Source of the DNA: Acinetobacter calcoaceticus DSM 30006 = CIP 81.8
Lineage (GTDB): Bacteria > Pseudomonadota > Gammaproteobacteria > Pseudomonadales > Moraxellaceae
DNA: 64,000 bases
Reading direction: 5' to 3'
Assembly (NCBI RefSeq): GCF_000368965.1
Contig: NZ_KB849780.1
Span: 806,145-870,144, forward strand
The translations under genes and the position numbers were made by a program. The notes below the pieces were generated by a model. That model saw only the letters and a list, made by a program, of their open reading frames with translations, ran no database searches and was not told the DNA's origin. Shown here one piece after another: positions 7,479 through 11,636 of the stretch. Every line of letters begins with the position of its first letter. The first letter of the stretch is position 1.

Positions 7479-9755
7479 ATGCTCAGTCGTCAATTAGAAG
7501 TATCATTACGTTTGGCTGTTAGCATGGCTCGTCAAAAGAGACATGAGTTTCTTACAGTTGAACATTTATTATTAGCGCTACTCGACAACGATTCGGCCGT
7601 GAATGCGTTAAAGGCATGTGGGGCTGATATAGTTTCTTTACGTAAAGAATTAGAAGAATATGTAGAACAACATACTCCTAAGCTTGGCGAAAATAGCGAG
7701 CAGGCGCCTCATCCAACAGAAAGTTTCGACCGCATTTTGCAACGTGCTATTTTCCATGTGCAATCAAGTGGCGGCGATCGTACTGTTGAAGGTGCGGATG
7801 TTTTGGTCGCAATGTATTCAGAGCGTGATTCTTTTGCTGTGTATTTGCTTAAACGTCATCAAATCAATCGATTGACATTGACTCAATACTTGTCTCATGG
7901 GACACGTAAAGATGAAGTGCAAGTTGAAGAAGAAGTTGAAGATATTGAGGGTGAAACGAGTACGGGCAATGCAGGGCCATTAGAGCTTTATACGCTGAAC
8001 TTAAATGTTGAAGCGCAAAAAGGCAAAACTGATCCACTTATTGGTCGTGAAAAAGAAATTGAGCGTACAGCACAAATTCTGTGCCGCCGTCGCAAAAATA
8101 ATCCATTACTTGTCGGTGATCCGGGCGTTGGTAAAACCTCGATTGCTGAAGGTTTGGCATGGTTAATTGTGAATGGTAAGGCGCCTAAACCTTTGAGTCA
8201 GGCTGAAGTTTATAGTTTAGATATTGGTGCATTAGTTGCTGGGACCAAATATCGAGGTGACTTTGAAAAACGTTTAAAACAATTGCTTAATGCTTTGAAG
8301 AAAAATCCAAATGCGATTTTATTCATTGATGAAATTCATATGATCATTGGCGCGGGCTCAAGTATGGGCAGCACAATGGATGCTTCGAATCTCATCAAGC
8401 CAGCTTTGGCAAATGGTAGTTTGCGTTGTATCGGTTCAACGACGTTCCAAGAATATCGTCAGGTTTTTGAAAAAGACCATGCGTTATCACGTCGTTTCCA
8501 GAAAATTGATGTCAATGAGCCAAGTATTTCTGAAACAATTGATATTTTGCGTGGCTTAAAATCTAAATTTGAAGATTTTCACCACGTACAATATGACGAT
8601 AAAGCATTGGTATCAGCTGTAGAGCTTTCTGCTAAATTCATTAATGATCGTTTCTTGCCAGACAAGGCAATTGATGTGATTGACGAAGCTGGTGCTCAGC
8701 GTCGTTTGAAGGCTGAAAGTGATGATAGTTTGATTACGGTAGAGAATATCGAAGATATCGTTTCTAAGATCGCTCGTATTCCACCAAAAACTGTTTCTAA
8801 AGACGATAAGTCAGTGCTTGAAAATCTTGAGCGTGATTTAAAACGTGTTGTGTTTGGTCAGGATGAAGCGATTACAGCGTTAGGCTCGGCAATCAAGTTG
8901 TCTCGTGCTGGATTGAAATCACCAGATAAGCCAGTAGGTAGTTTTGTTTTTGCTGGCCCAACAGGTGTGGGTAAAACTGAAGTCACTAAACAGCTGGCGA
9001 AGTTGTTAGGTGTGGAGCTGGTGCGTTTCGATATGTCTGAATATATGGAACGTCATGCAGTTTCACGTTTGATTGGTGCACCTCCGGGTTATGTGGGTTA
9101 TGACCAAGGTGGGCTGTTAACTGATGCGATCCATAAGAATCCGCACTGTGTTTTATTGCTAGATGAAATTGAGAAAGCACATCCAGATGTGTTCAATCTC
9201 TTGCTGCAAATCATGGATCATGGTGCTTTAACGGATAACAACGGACGTAAGTCAGACTTTAGAAACGTTATTATTGTCCTGACTACGAATGTGGGAGCAG
9301 AGAGTATTTCTCGCGCGAGTATTGGTTTTACTGAACAAGATCATAGTTCTGATAACCAAGAAGCAATGAAACGTGCTTTCTCACCAGAGTTCCGTAACCG
9401 TCTAGATAGTGTTATTCAATTCAAGTCATTACCAACAACTGTTATTGAGTCTGTGGTTGATAAATTCTTGACAGAGTTACAAGCTCAACTAGATGACAAA
9501 CAAGTTGTACTTGATGTCGATCAAAGTGCTCGTGATTGGTTGGCAACAAATGGTTATGACCGCTTGATGGGTGCACGTCCAATGCAACGCCTCATTCAAG
9601 AACACTTGAAGAAACCATTAGCTGAAATGATTTTGTTTGGTGAACTGGCAGATCATGGTGGTAATGTGGCTGTATCAGTGAAAAATGAAGATGGCAAAGC
9701 TGTTGGCTTAAAACTTGAAGTGTTTGAAGATCATCATACGGCAGAACCAGCATAA
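7479..9755 (+). CDS. clpA: ATP-dependent Clp protease ATP-binding subunit
   Basis: Hexameric AAA+ unfoldase of ClpAP. The 758-residue protein has an N-domain (about 1-145), an acidic linker (EVEEEVEDIEGE) and the first AAA module with Walker A GDPGVGKT and Walker B ILFIDEIH. The second module carries Walker A GPTGVGKT, sensor/arginine-finger region SPEFRNRLD and pore loop GAPPGYVGYDQGG. It is translated just after its adaptor clpS. A strong hairpin begins about 25 bp past the stop, inside the next reading frame. Confidence 0.97.
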   Translation: MLSRQLEVSLRLAVSMARQKRHEFLTVEHLLLALLDNDSAVNALKACGADIVSLRKELEEYVEQHTPKLGENSEQAPHPTESFDRILQRAIFHVQSSGGDRTVEGADVLVAMYSERDSFAVYLLKRHQINRLTLTQYLSHGTRKDEVQVEEEVEDIEGETSTGNAGPLELYTLNLNVEAQKGKTDPLIGREKEIERTAQILCRRRKNNPLLVGDPGVGKTSIAEGLAWLIVNGKAPKPLSQAEVYSLDIGALVAGTKYRGDFEKRLKQLLNALKKNPNAILFIDEIHMIIGAGSSMGSTMDASNLIKPALANGSLRCIGSTTFQEYRQVFEKDHALSRRFQKIDVNEPSISETIDILRGLKSKFEDFHHVQYDDKALVSAVELSAKFINDRFLPDKAIDVIDEAGAQRRLKAESDDSLITVENIEDIVSKIARIPPKTVSKDDKSVLENLERDLKRVVFGQDEAITALGSAIKLSRAGLKSPDKPVGSFVFAGPTGVGKTEVTKQLAKLLGVELVRFDMSEYMERHAVSRLIGAPPGYVGYDQGGLLTDAIHKNPHCVLLLDEIEKAHPDVFNLLLQIMDHGALTDNNGRKSDFRNVIIVLTTNVGAESISRASIGFTEQDHSSDNQEAMKRAFSPEFRNRLDSVIQFKSLPTTVIESVVDKFLTELQAQLDDKQVVLDVDQSARDWLATNGYDRLMGARPMQRLIQEHLKKPLAEMILFGELADHGGNVAVSVKNEDGKAVGLKLEVFEDHHTAEPA

Positions 9756-9758
9756 CTC

Positions 9759-10121
9759 ATGTTAATTGATAGTCTTGCTATAACCCGAATACTGAGTGTA
9801 TTCGGGTTATTTATTATTACAGCAATTGCTGAAATTCTGGGTTGTTATTTCCCTTATCTGATTTTAAGAGAAGGTAAGTCGGCTTGGCTGTGGTTACCTA
9901 CAGTTTTAAGTTTGGCTGTCTTTGTATGGCTGCTGACCCTACATCCAGCGGCTTCAGGGCGCATTTATGCTGCATATGGCGGTATTTATATTTTTACTGC
10001 GTTAATGTGGCTGCGCTTTGTTGATCAGGTCGGATTAACAAGATGGGATATATTAGGTGGTCTAATAGTGTTTTGTGGAGCTGGCTTAATTATTTTACAA
10101 CCTCAAGGGCTGATTCGTTAA
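9759..10121 (+). CDS. YnfA family small membrane protein
   Basis: A 120-residue protein with four hydrophobic segments and the YnfA signature [22 protein letters not shown]. The family resembles small multidrug resistance transporters, but its role is not settled. The reading frame starts 3 bp after clpA with little ribosome site. It is about 12 residues longer at the N-terminus than typical YnfA proteins, and the extra codons overlap a 13-bp hairpin. A later non-ATG start is possible. Confidence 0.85.
9780..9810 (+). terminator. Hairpin downstream of clpA, inside the 5' end of the YnfA gene
   Basis: ATAACCCGAATAC and GTATTCGGGTTAT form a perfect 13-bp stem with a TGAGT loop, followed by TTATTATT. 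It looks like an intrinsic terminator for clpA although it lies within the YnfA reading frame. Confidence 0.6.
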
Positions 10122-10166
10122 GACAATGAGTGAATCTGAAAATAAGAAGTTTTTCAAAAAAAAGAC

Positions 10167-10195
10167 TTGTCAAAGCCCTCAACAATGCGTATTTT
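10167..10195 (+). promoter_or_regulatory. Candidate promoter for aroG leader RNA / small RNA
   Basis: TTGTCA (10167-10172) and TATTTT (10190-10195) are separated by exactly 17 bp, a reasonable sigma70 promoter. Transcription would start near 10202, upstream of a structured RNA ending at the terminator at 10366. Confidence 0.5.
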
Positions 10196-10201
10196 AGATT
10201 T

Positions 10202-10366
10202 AAGGAACATTTTTTTATATTTGAGATAAAGATGTTAAATCTATCTGTGAACACTAACGCATATTATTATTTTTGGCAATTTAGATAGTTGCCTGAGCGT
10301 ATTCGGGCATGAGAAAGTTGCCCATCACAGTTAATACCTGATCGGCAACCCCGATCAGGTTTTTTT
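10202..10366 (+). ncRNA. Candidate structured leader RNA or small RNA upstream of aroG
   Basis: About 165 nt between a plausible promoter and a strong intrinsic terminator, with no reading frame. GCCTGA/TCGGGC can form a short stem (10291-10307). Two copies of GTTGCC (10288-10293 and 10317-10322) can pair with GGCAAC (10344-10349), which spans the upper stem and loop of the terminator. The RNA could therefore switch between terminated and read-through forms. I do not recognise an Rfam family. Confidence 0.45.
10337..10366 (+). terminator. Strong intrinsic terminator just upstream of the aroG leader peptide
   Basis: CCTGATCGG and CCGATCAGG form a perfect 9-bp stem with a CAACC loop followed by seven T. 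It lies only 33 bp before the leader-peptide start, leaving little room for a separate promoter, so aroG may depend on read-through. Confidence 0.85.
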
Positions 10367-10398
10367 ATGCTTTATCTTTTTGAATCGAGGAACTTAAA

Positions 10399-10491
10399 AT
10401 GAACAACATGACTTATTCATACTTTAGCAACTTTTATTGGTTTTACTTTTGCTTGCCTTTACCAACGAATAGATCCAAAACGCTCAAATAA
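10399..10491 (+). CDS. Aromatic-rich leader peptide of the DAHP synthase gene
   Basis: A 30-codon frame with a good ribosome site (GAGG at 10387-10390) encodes a peptide whose first 18 residues are MNNMTYSYFSNFYWFYFC. Nine of residues 6-17 are Tyr, Phe or Trp. It ends at TAA 10489-10491, 40 bp before aroG. This is the hallmark of an attenuation leader that senses charged aromatic tRNAs. Bases 10433-10444, within the Phe-Tyr-Trp-Phe-Tyr codons, are complementary to 10525-10536 covering the aroG start codon. That suggests control at translation initiation: stalled ribosomes would keep the aroG start open. Expression and stalling are inference. Confidence 0.75.
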   Translation: MNNMTYSYFSNFYWFYFCLPLPTNRSKTLK

Positions 10492-10497
10492 ATGATC

Positions 10498-10518
10498 GGA
10501 CTGAATAGATTGCAGTCC
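10498..10518 (+). promoter_or_regulatory. Small hairpin between leader peptide and aroG ribosome site
   Basis: GGACTG (10498-10503) and CAGTCC (10513-10518) form a perfect 6-bp stem ending two bases before AAGGA, the aroG ribosome site. It would nest inside the longer leader-to-start-codon helix and could bring those arms together. Confidence 0.5.
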
Positions 10519-10531
10519 CAAGGAAAAACCA

Positions 10532-11587
10532 ATGAATGCCCTAAATACTTTATTGACACAAAGCAATACAAAAGAAACTCCAGTTAGTTTACCTGTCCAG
10601 TTAAAAGCAAAATATCCGCTTGCACACTCTTTCGTGCGTCAAATTGCCGAACACCGTCAAACTATTCAAAATATTCTTATCGGCAAAGATCATCGGTTAA
10701 TGGTAATTACAGGGCCTTGTTCCATTCATGATCCGGTTGCAGTACTTGAATACGCTGAAAGATTGCAAAAATTACAAGAAAAAGTAAAAGATCAGATTTT
10801 TATCGTGATGCGTGCATACATTGAAAAACCACGTACAACTGTGGGTTGGAAGGGTTTTATGTATGATCCAAATTTAGATGGTTCATCAAATTTACAACTT
10901 GGCTTAGAAAAGTCTCGCGAACTTTACTTACAAATTATTGAAAAGGGTTTGCCAATTGCGAGTGAAATTTTAAGTCCAATGGCAACTGGTTATTTTGATG
11001 ATTTATTGGCTTGGGGTGCAATTGGCGCTCGTACAAGTGAGTCTCAAATTCATCGTGAAATCTCAAGTCACATGCCATACAGTATTGGTTTCAAGAATGG
11101 TACGGATGGTTCAATTCAGATTGCCTTAGATGCGATTCAGTCAGCACAAAATGAACATCAATTTTTAGGAATGAATCAACAAGGCTTACCTTCAGTGATT
11201 CAGAGTGCTGGTAATCCCTTACCACACTTGATTTTGCGCGGAGCGAATCATGGGCCAAATTATGATTTAGCTTCAATTCAGGCTATACGAGAAAAACACA
11301 AACAAAATCTTCCTGCATTGGTGATTGACTGTAGTCATGGCAATAGCAGTAAAGATCCGTTACGTCAGCCAGAAGTTTTACAGCAAATCGTTGCTGAACG
11401 TTTAAAAACACAAGTAAAGGGTGTCATGATTGAAAGTCATTTGGTTGATGGTAGCCAAAAGATTTCTTGTGATATGACTTATGGGCAGTCAGTAACTGAT
11501 GGTTGCTTAGGATGGGAAAAAACAGAGCGACTTTTGTTAAGTGTTTCAGAGCAATTAAAAGCAAAAGAGTTAGCTCATTCAGCTTAA
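10532..11587 (+). CDS. aroG: 3-deoxy-7-phosphoheptulonate synthase (class I DAHP synthase)
   Basis: Condenses phosphoenolpyruvate and erythrose-4-phosphate, the entry step of the shikimate pathway. The 351-residue protein shows MVITGPCSIHDP, the active-site segment VMRAYIEKPRTTVGWKG, GARTSESQIHRE, GFKNGTDG and the metal-ligand region VIDCSHGNSSKDP of the AroF/G/H type. Which aromatic amino acid inhibits it cannot be read from sequence, so the symbol denotes the family. AAGGA lies 7 nt before the ATG, and a leader peptide precedes it. Confidence 0.9.
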   Translation: MNALNTLLTQSNTKETPVSLPVQLKAKYPLAHSFVRQIAEHRQTIQNILIGKDHRLMVITGPCSIHDPVAVLEYAERLQKLQEKVKDQIFIVMRAYIEKPRTTVGWKGFMYDPNLDGSSNLQLGLEKSRELYLQIIEKGLPIASEILSPMATGYFDDLLAWGAIGARTSESQIHREISSHMPYSIGFKNGTDGSIQIALDAIQSAQNEHQFLGMNQQGLPSVIQSAGNPLPHLILRGANHGPNYDLASIQAIREKHKQNLPALVIDCSHGNSSKDPLRQPEVLQQIVAERLKTQVKGVMIESHLVDGSQKISCDMTYGQSVTDGCLGWEKTERLLLSVSEQLKAKELAHSA

Positions 11588-11603: not shown

Positions 11604-11636
11604 AAAGGGATCTGCGAACAGATCCCTTTATTTTTT
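11604..11636. terminator. Bidirectional terminator between aroG and the convergent hydrolase
   Basis: AAAGGGATCTG / CAGATCCCTTT is a perfect 11-bp stem with a CGAA loop. It is flanked by an A run on the left and a T run on the right, so it serves both converging genes. Confidence 0.85.

Follow-up and report, generated by a model that had tools for sequence, protein, structure and literature searches.

The DAHP synthase gene in the window (the whole 64,000-nucleotide stretch of Acinetobacter calcoaceticus DNA that was analysed) is probably controlled by a tandem attenuator, in which charged aromatic tRNA would be read twice, at transcription and then at translation. Two leader ORFs rich in aromatic codons, an intrinsic terminator and a hairpin (H) are present upstream of the gene, and their conservation and their folding behaviour in silico were followed across species. 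We infer that both leaders are translated, that ribosomes stall within them and that stalling alters enzyme output. In stage 1, a ribosome stalled on the Tyr, Phe or Trp codons of leader 1 would cover the TGGCAA of segment 1, whereupon segments 2 and 3, and then 4 and 5, would pair and the terminator would be blocked. A ribosome that reached the leader 1 stop would allow 3 and 4 to pair, and transcription would end at 10366. In stage 2, once transcription had read through, a helix (core:RBS) would form between the aromatic core of leader 2 and the SD-to-ATG stretch of the gene, with hairpin H folding away the distance between them. A ribosome stalled on this core would mask it and leave the gene start free; one that finished leader 2 would have moved past the core, by 13 codons in the window, so leaving the core free to close the gene start.

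Two leaders and a terminator upstream of the DAHP synthase gene

Leader 2 was the starting point, having been picked out in a sequence-only reading of this DNA. It is an ORF of 30 codons, MNNMTYSYFSNFYWFYFCLPLPTNRSKTLK* (10399..10491, + strand, as are all features below), seen in the ORF list and in alignments, with an SD (GAGGA) at 10387..10391 and a stop 40 nt upstream of the gene's ATG at 10532. Nine Tyr, Phe or Trp are found among residues 6-17, exactly as that reading had it, and the leader alignment defines this stretch as the aromatic core (Tyr6-Phe17, 10414..10449). No other ORF among the 1421 of 12-100 codons in the window contains more than 7 aromatics per 12 residues (9 in leader 2; next best 7), and a search of the window's genome that allowed up to 3 mismatches located a 23-base piece of the core a single time. 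The gene itself (10532..11587; SD, AAGGA, at 10520..10524) encodes a class I DAHP synthase. The earlier label of aroG is not supported: the closest solved relative is a Tyr-sensitive (AroF-like) enzyme, and the cut-off of the AroG model was not reached. Downstream of the gene, at 11604-11636, a hairpin (AAAGGGATCTG...CAGATCCCTTT) with a T-rich run behind it resembles, by eye, its transcription terminator.

A scan of 9750-10700 agreed with the earlier observation that no terminator follows leader 2. However, the conclusion drawn from it, which placed control at translation, gives just half of the picture, because an upstream leader and a terminator that precedes leader 2 had been overlooked. 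Since these lie upstream, leader 2 would form the second stage of a tandem attenuator. Leader 1 (MLNLSVNTNAYYYFWQFR, 10232..10288, ending ...NAYYYFWQFR) was identified from the ORF list and a genus-wide pattern. A promoter-like site (TTGTCA-17-TATTTT, 10167..10195) is a weak candidate from a consensus scan, which returned 5 sites in 9750-10700 where 3.2 were expected. The antiterminator/terminator set spans 10274-10366, after leader 1. Ribosome-mask folding delimits segment 1 (TGGCAA, 10274..10279, the Trp-Gln codons of leader 1), segment 2 (TTGCCT, 10289..10294), segment 3 (GGGCA, 10305..10309), segment 4 (GTTGCCC, 10317..10323) and segment 5 (GGCAAC, 10344..10349), the last lying within the terminator and being the antiterminator partner of segment 4. 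The intrinsic terminator, a strong one, CCTGATCGG-CAACC-CCGATCAGG-TTTTTTT (10337..10366), was found by scan, by folding and by paired changes, and its 3′ end lies 32 bases upstream of the leader 2 start codon. The region 10203-10367 folds with a z of -4.41 (0/200 shuffles as good), and the terminator stem shows paired changes across the genus (ATCGG/CCGAT, ATTGG/CCAAT, AGCGG/CCGCT).

The leader 1 core was found by pattern in 129/130 Acinetobacter loci (given below as L numbers), representing 93 distinct segments, every one of which has an ATG and, over its final 12 residues, 5-6 aromatics; L116, which the pattern missed, still carries TYVYFWYFR. The stage 1 RNA was folded with its end placed before the 3′ arm of the terminator, for 84 of the 93 segments (nine lack one of the five pieces by pattern). 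With a ribosome stalled on the leader 1 aromatic codons, mean scaled pairing was 1.04 for 2:3, 1.06 for 4:5 and 0.12 for 3:4. With the ribosome on the leader 1 stop, 3:4 rose to 0.67 and 2:3 was absent, with 4:5 still at 0.48. Pairing of 2:3 was higher in the stall than in the stop state by more than 0.3 in 82/84 segments; for 4:5 this was so in 54, with the reverse in 4 and no clear difference in 26. The antiterminator appears only when the RNA stops short of the terminator's second arm: equilibrium folding with the whole terminator revealed almost no switch, the terminator dropping by more than 0.3 on stalling in only 5/93. In most species the terminator thus wins in every state at equilibrium, which would be expected if the choice is kinetic. 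As modelled here, stage 1 follows the logic of a classical attenuator.

Distribution of the leaders and overlap with Rfam P15

The Acinetobacter sample comprised 80 named loci, loci from the window's own and further genomes (several of them repeats) and 20 diverged loci, giving 130 loci with 105 distinct leader 2 regions. All 105 contain an aromatic leader 2, which is frameshifted in one case (L079). Removal of L015 (misplaced gene start) and L079 left 103 rows, in all of which the aromatic content of the best 12 residues exceeded that of nucleotide shuffles at p<=0.05, although the most aromatic ATG frame was picked and the shuffles do not allow for that. L079, from Acinetobacter sp. WU_MDCI_Axc73, has its leader 2 frame broken by a 1-nt deletion and its leader 1 intact. 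The leader 2 SD and frame are kept. Among 72 distinct leaders of the main clade, none departs from Tyr and Phe at the YF pair, and 71 retain Trp; in A. baylyi (L022), Tyr replaces this otherwise near-invariant Trp. Codon choice is position-specific, with one Tyr being TAT in 54/54 and the Tyr after Trp-Phe being TAC in 55/65. The usual coding signature is weak, since the three codon positions differ almost equally between species (0.294, 0.290 and 0.351). In the most diverged Acinetobacter lineages, in which the enzyme is 55-69% identical, nearly all of the leader 2 peptide has changed and yet it is still aromatic (e.g. MTYQFFSSARFYQYW, YLVAYFQPRFWFYV).

The window's own genome contains a second class I DAHP synthase gene (L082, C3:1251420-1252415) that is 50% identical. 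The leader pair is absent there and in 19 genomes from 15 other genera of the family, where no terminator-like stem was found in the 450 bases upstream and aromatic windows of 5-6 are scattered. A tree of 28 rows places the 8 window-type genes in one clade (support 100/100), apart from L082 and the genes of the other genera, with which L082 groups; one row of this tree, L149, sits on an abnormally long branch and is likely to have been misread. Two Acinetobacter genomes (G101, G119) seem to lack the window's gene, as their single match is at the level of the second gene.

Across 244 sampled genomes of the order, the closest relatives outside Acinetobacter are 51-54% identical and fall into two other families, f21 and f43, most of them into the Pseudomonas-type one. 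The description of f21 as Pseudomonas-type is provisional and follows from P15 and the sequences. Upstream of these genes the plan is the same and the sequence is unrelated: a leader 1 ending ...YFFYGYWFSxRRA, a terminator, a leader 2 (e.g. MNTTYYRYYRNSDWRFSSALRATQRALPRTLR), a G+C-rich hairpin, an SD and the gene. Fifty-eight non-Acinetobacter loci were considered, of which L215 lacks the leader 1 core by pattern and L160 and L161 have no usable leader 2. Two more (L159, L209) were excluded for an implausible gene start 4-5 nt past the leader, which left 53 loci for the spacer test and 51 distinct ones for stall folding. The case for f43 is weaker, in that L161 carries P15 without a leader 2. 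In leader 2 of L151-L214, Trp-Arg-Phe-Ser is mostly encoded by TGGCGATTTAGC despite the genomes being G+C-rich. CGA and TTT are rare codons in such genomes, and their inclusion in TGGCGATTTAGC suggests a constraint at the level of RNA.

In these upstream regions, the end of leader 1 together with the terminator is Rfam RF00627 (Pseudomonas sRNA P15). It scored above the gathering cut-off in 10 of the 13 non-Acinetobacter loci scanned, each time upstream of the DAHP synthase gene (L151, L154, L156, L158, L161, L163, L175, L189, L203, L211), but not in the other three (L157, L160, L214). RF00627 had no match in the window, nor at the two other Acinetobacter loci scanned. L191, from another order, has a P15-like element just below the cut-off, followed by an aromatic-poor second ORF and what by eye is a DAHP synthase-like gene start. 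Given this position, at the leader 1 end and terminator before a DAHP synthase gene, P15 is probably an attenuator product and not a free-standing sRNA.

Predicted pairing at the gene's ribosome site and alternative readings of stage 2

The sequence-only reading had proposed a 12-bp helix with one G-U pair between 10433..10444, in leader 2, and 10525..10536, at the gene's ribosome site. This helix was recovered as part of the MFE fold. Its ribosome-site arm, which folding and the spacer test both indicate, contains the ATG (10532-10534), and beyond the leader arm CTTT (10446-10449) prolongs the helix to the SD. An equally long helix arose in 0/2000 mononucleotide shuffles and in 34% of 2000 synonymous recodings of leader 2; its length is therefore not clearly above chance, aromatic codons being U-rich. 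Against the other 37 ribosome sites in the window, the longest helix of leader 2 was 11 and the next 8. Opening the SD-to-ATG stretch of the gene costs 8.9 kcal/mol, compared with a mean of 4.8 in 60 synonymous recodings (share as high 0.02). Shuffling of the SD-ATG spacer gave p 0.03 for the rows that have the window's spacer (L002, L005), the window's own row having been merged into an identical one. What takes the helix beyond chance is how it affects the ribosome site of the gene, and not clearly its length. The fold of the leader 2-gene region as a whole is uninformative for stage 2 (z = -0.64). In the helix of the window, the C of the TAC that follows Trp-Phe is paired to the SD. By eye, the leader 2 SD could pair with TCCAAA upstream of the gene's SD. 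A further helix in the mean pairing map, linking the leader 2 codons for SYFS (TATTTTAGC) to the end of that same leader (GCTCAAATA), was dropped and is not claimed here, because Tyr wobble breaks one of its pairs in 31/88 rows.

Conservation of both the leader and its pairing had been put forward as a check on that reading. The reading frame and the aromatic codons are kept across Acinetobacter. The exact 12-bp helix is retained in the species complex of the window and in several further groups of the genus, but about half of the main clade has lost it: each of its two central G-C pairs is present there in only 45/88 rows and not once replaced by a compensatory change. Thirty-one Acinetobacter rows, from 36 hand-picked for diversity among the 103, were compared with synonymous recodings. 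At a share of <=0.03, opening cost was above the recodings in 7/31 (L081, L003, L006, L044, L053, L065, L068), and the drop caused by stalling went beyond them in 5/31. The site was not significantly more closed than in the recodings in haemolyticus (L020), baylyi (L022), ursingii (L012) and L035 (near soli).

Complementarity between the core and the ribosome site appears to recur across lineages in pairings that are unrelated in sequence (GACUGGCG:CGCCAGUC; CUGUUUUCCU:AGGAAAACAG; UAUUGGUUUU:AAAACCAAUG; GUUUAUCC:GGAUAAAU). The spacer fits the core at p<=0.1 for 13/58 distinct spacers in Acinetobacter (5.8 expected) and 15/33 in Pseudomonas-type rows (3.3 expected); the fit is worse than 80% of shuffles (p>=0.8) for 12/58 and 6/33, respectively. 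The stretch that pairs best with the ribosome site is part of the aromatic core in 31/54 Acinetobacter cases (18 expected by length) and 22/33 Pseudomonas-type cases (11.3 expected). Folding with ribosome masks bears on the claim that a stalled ribosome frees the gene start. The opening cost under stalling was below that of the free fold in 66/103 Acinetobacter rows (above in 16/103) and in 34/51 Pseudomonas-type rows (above in 3/51). The stop state was more closed than the stall state in 80/103 (less in 17/103) and 43/51 (less in 4/51), respectively; the rows are related and these counts are not independent. In these folds a ribosome positioned on the core tends to expose the gene start, and one positioned on the stop does not. 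Predicted sequestration goes beyond the null expectation in the complex to which the window belongs, in some of the other Acinetobacter and in many of the Pseudomonas-type rows; elsewhere it does not. From the core's end to the leader 2 stop there are at least 13 codons in Acinetobacter (median 15; window 13); Pseudomonas-type rows have a median of 16 but go down to 2, which counts against the pairing model.

Hairpin H (GGACTG-loop-CAGTCC, 10498..10518) lies between the leader 2 stop and the gene's SD and is indicated by the alignment and by fold tests. Paired changes preserve it (GGGCTG/CAGCCC, GGGC/GCCC, GAGCA/TGCTC, GGATTGC/GCAATCC, GGGT/ACCC), and stretches containing it fold better than shuffles at p<=0.05 in 61/76 distinct Acinetobacter cases and 26/45 Pseudomonas-type cases, where G+C-rich shuffles also fold well. 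The stop-to-ATG distance in Acinetobacter is 25-45 nt where H is present. Discounting H, it becomes 19 or 20 nt in 76/93 rows with a genuine hairpin, five rows of an H-less clade with a false 4-bp stem not being counted as having H. Rows lacking H have 16-17 nt (L118-L121, L124), 8 nt (L123) or an overlap (L112-L115). The leader 2 stop adjoins the gene's SD in L118-L121, L123 and L124, and elsewhere does so only with H folded. In the four diverged rows L112-L115, leader 2 passes 25 nt into the DAHP synthase gene in another frame; judged from sequence, this does not fit a simple masking helix.

Such regular spacing is what occlusion would predict. As for rtpLP-rtpA of B. subtilis, a ribosome terminating leader 2 on or beside the SD would block initiation, a ribosome stalled upstream would leave the SD open, and H would serve only to shorten the path; the 15 nt of L214, a Pseudomonas-type row without H, are in keeping with this. 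However, L157, also without the hairpin, has 29 nt, the Pseudomonas-type distance is mostly 24-29 nt when only the perfect stem is subtracted, and the constant spacing is in part just a matter of conserved flanks. Occlusion would also leave the complementarity of the SD-ATG spacer to the aromatic core unexplained, and as a general account of stage 2 we consider it unlikely. The same short effective distances could suit translational coupling, in which ribosomes finishing leader 2 would reinitiate at the DAHP synthase start and leader 2 would raise its translation, short distances between leader and gene having been proposed for reinitiation (PMC4833913). With aromatic codons in the leader, starvation would then be expected to cut enzyme output, which is the wrong sign for a biosynthetic gene and opposite to stage 1, and makes coupling improbable.

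Two further readings concern leader 2 itself, and both seem highly improbable. TnaC is arrested by its nascent peptide, and leader 2 could in the same manner sense free aromatic amino acids instead of codons. Some non-aromatic residues and the LK end are indeed conserved in the main clade, but diverged lineages retain the aromatic composition and not the residues. Alternatively, leader 2 might be a functionless, decayed duplicate of leader 1, given that both contain aromatic runs, that leader 2 is missing in L161 and that by eye it is aromatic-poor in L160 and L191. Against such decay, the open frame, the aromatic core and H recur in Acinetobacter and also in Pseudomonas-type rows, the latter with an enzyme of just 51-54% identity. 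For the complex that includes the window, and for many Pseudomonas-type species, core:RBS pairing is our preferred account of stage 2. In the rest of Acinetobacter, the terminating ribosome may instead act by occlusion.

Relation to known systems

The rtpA (anti-TRAP) leader of B. subtilis, reportedly described by Chen and Yanofsky in 2003 and 2004 as combining a T box with rtpLP, appears by analogy to be the nearest precedent in logic. It contains a T box plus the rtpLP leader peptide (PMC11255114). There one shortage is read twice in series, as we propose here, with termination first and translation second by way of tRNA-dependent ribosome stalling; its first stage is a T box for one amino acid only, where a leader peptide for the aromatic amino acids would serve here. 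The second stage of rtpA is ribosome occlusion, whereas here it is most likely core:RBS pairing.

The trp, his and pheA leaders are ribosome-mediated transcription attenuators. The leader of the C. glutamicum DAHP synthase gene aroF is of the same type (PMC4046766). These resemble stage 1 in having a leader peptide with regulatory codons, an antiterminator and a U-tract terminator, but each is described with one leader, whereas here a second follows the terminator. Salmonella mgtCBR has the tandem attenuators mgtM and mgtP, responding to ATP and proline (PMC3641672). The likeness is that of two short ORFs in one leader RNA; according to that description two different signals both act on transcription, whereas here one signal would act at two levels. 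In translational attenuators of the erm type, stalling in the leader frees a sequestered ribosome site, as is proposed for stage 2. Two leaders, ermBL and ermBL2, are described for ermB (PMC8274638). In the erm type as described, the signal is an antibiotic and not charged tRNA, and no terminator stage of the present kind precedes it. Among the matches listed from open-licence literature, in titles and the beginnings of abstracts, we found no description of the tandem leader device. To our knowledge, translational attenuation in response to amino acid shortage has seldom been described in Gram-negative bacteria, and we know of no series of two leader peptides that reads the same signal at two levels.

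On balance we favour extending the proposal across the order Pseudomonadales, with a single aromatic shortage being sensed by translating ribosomes twice in succession on one mRNA, at a transcription attenuator first and at a translational attenuator of flexible sequence second, at the enzyme of entry to the shikimate pathway; P15 would be the prematurely ended product of stage 1. RF00627 is filed in Rfam as a gene, whereas in Pseudomonas-type relatives it extends over the leader 1 end and the terminator. If the proposal is true, P15 would no longer be an orphan sRNA but an attenuator by-product, and the second stage would offer a testable example of a regulatory helix whose position is kept while its sequence turns over. 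It would also explain how DAHP synthase is controlled where the enteric TyrR/TrpR model may not apply: the cell probably checks its supply of Tyr, Phe and Trp twice before making the first enzyme of the aromatic pathway.
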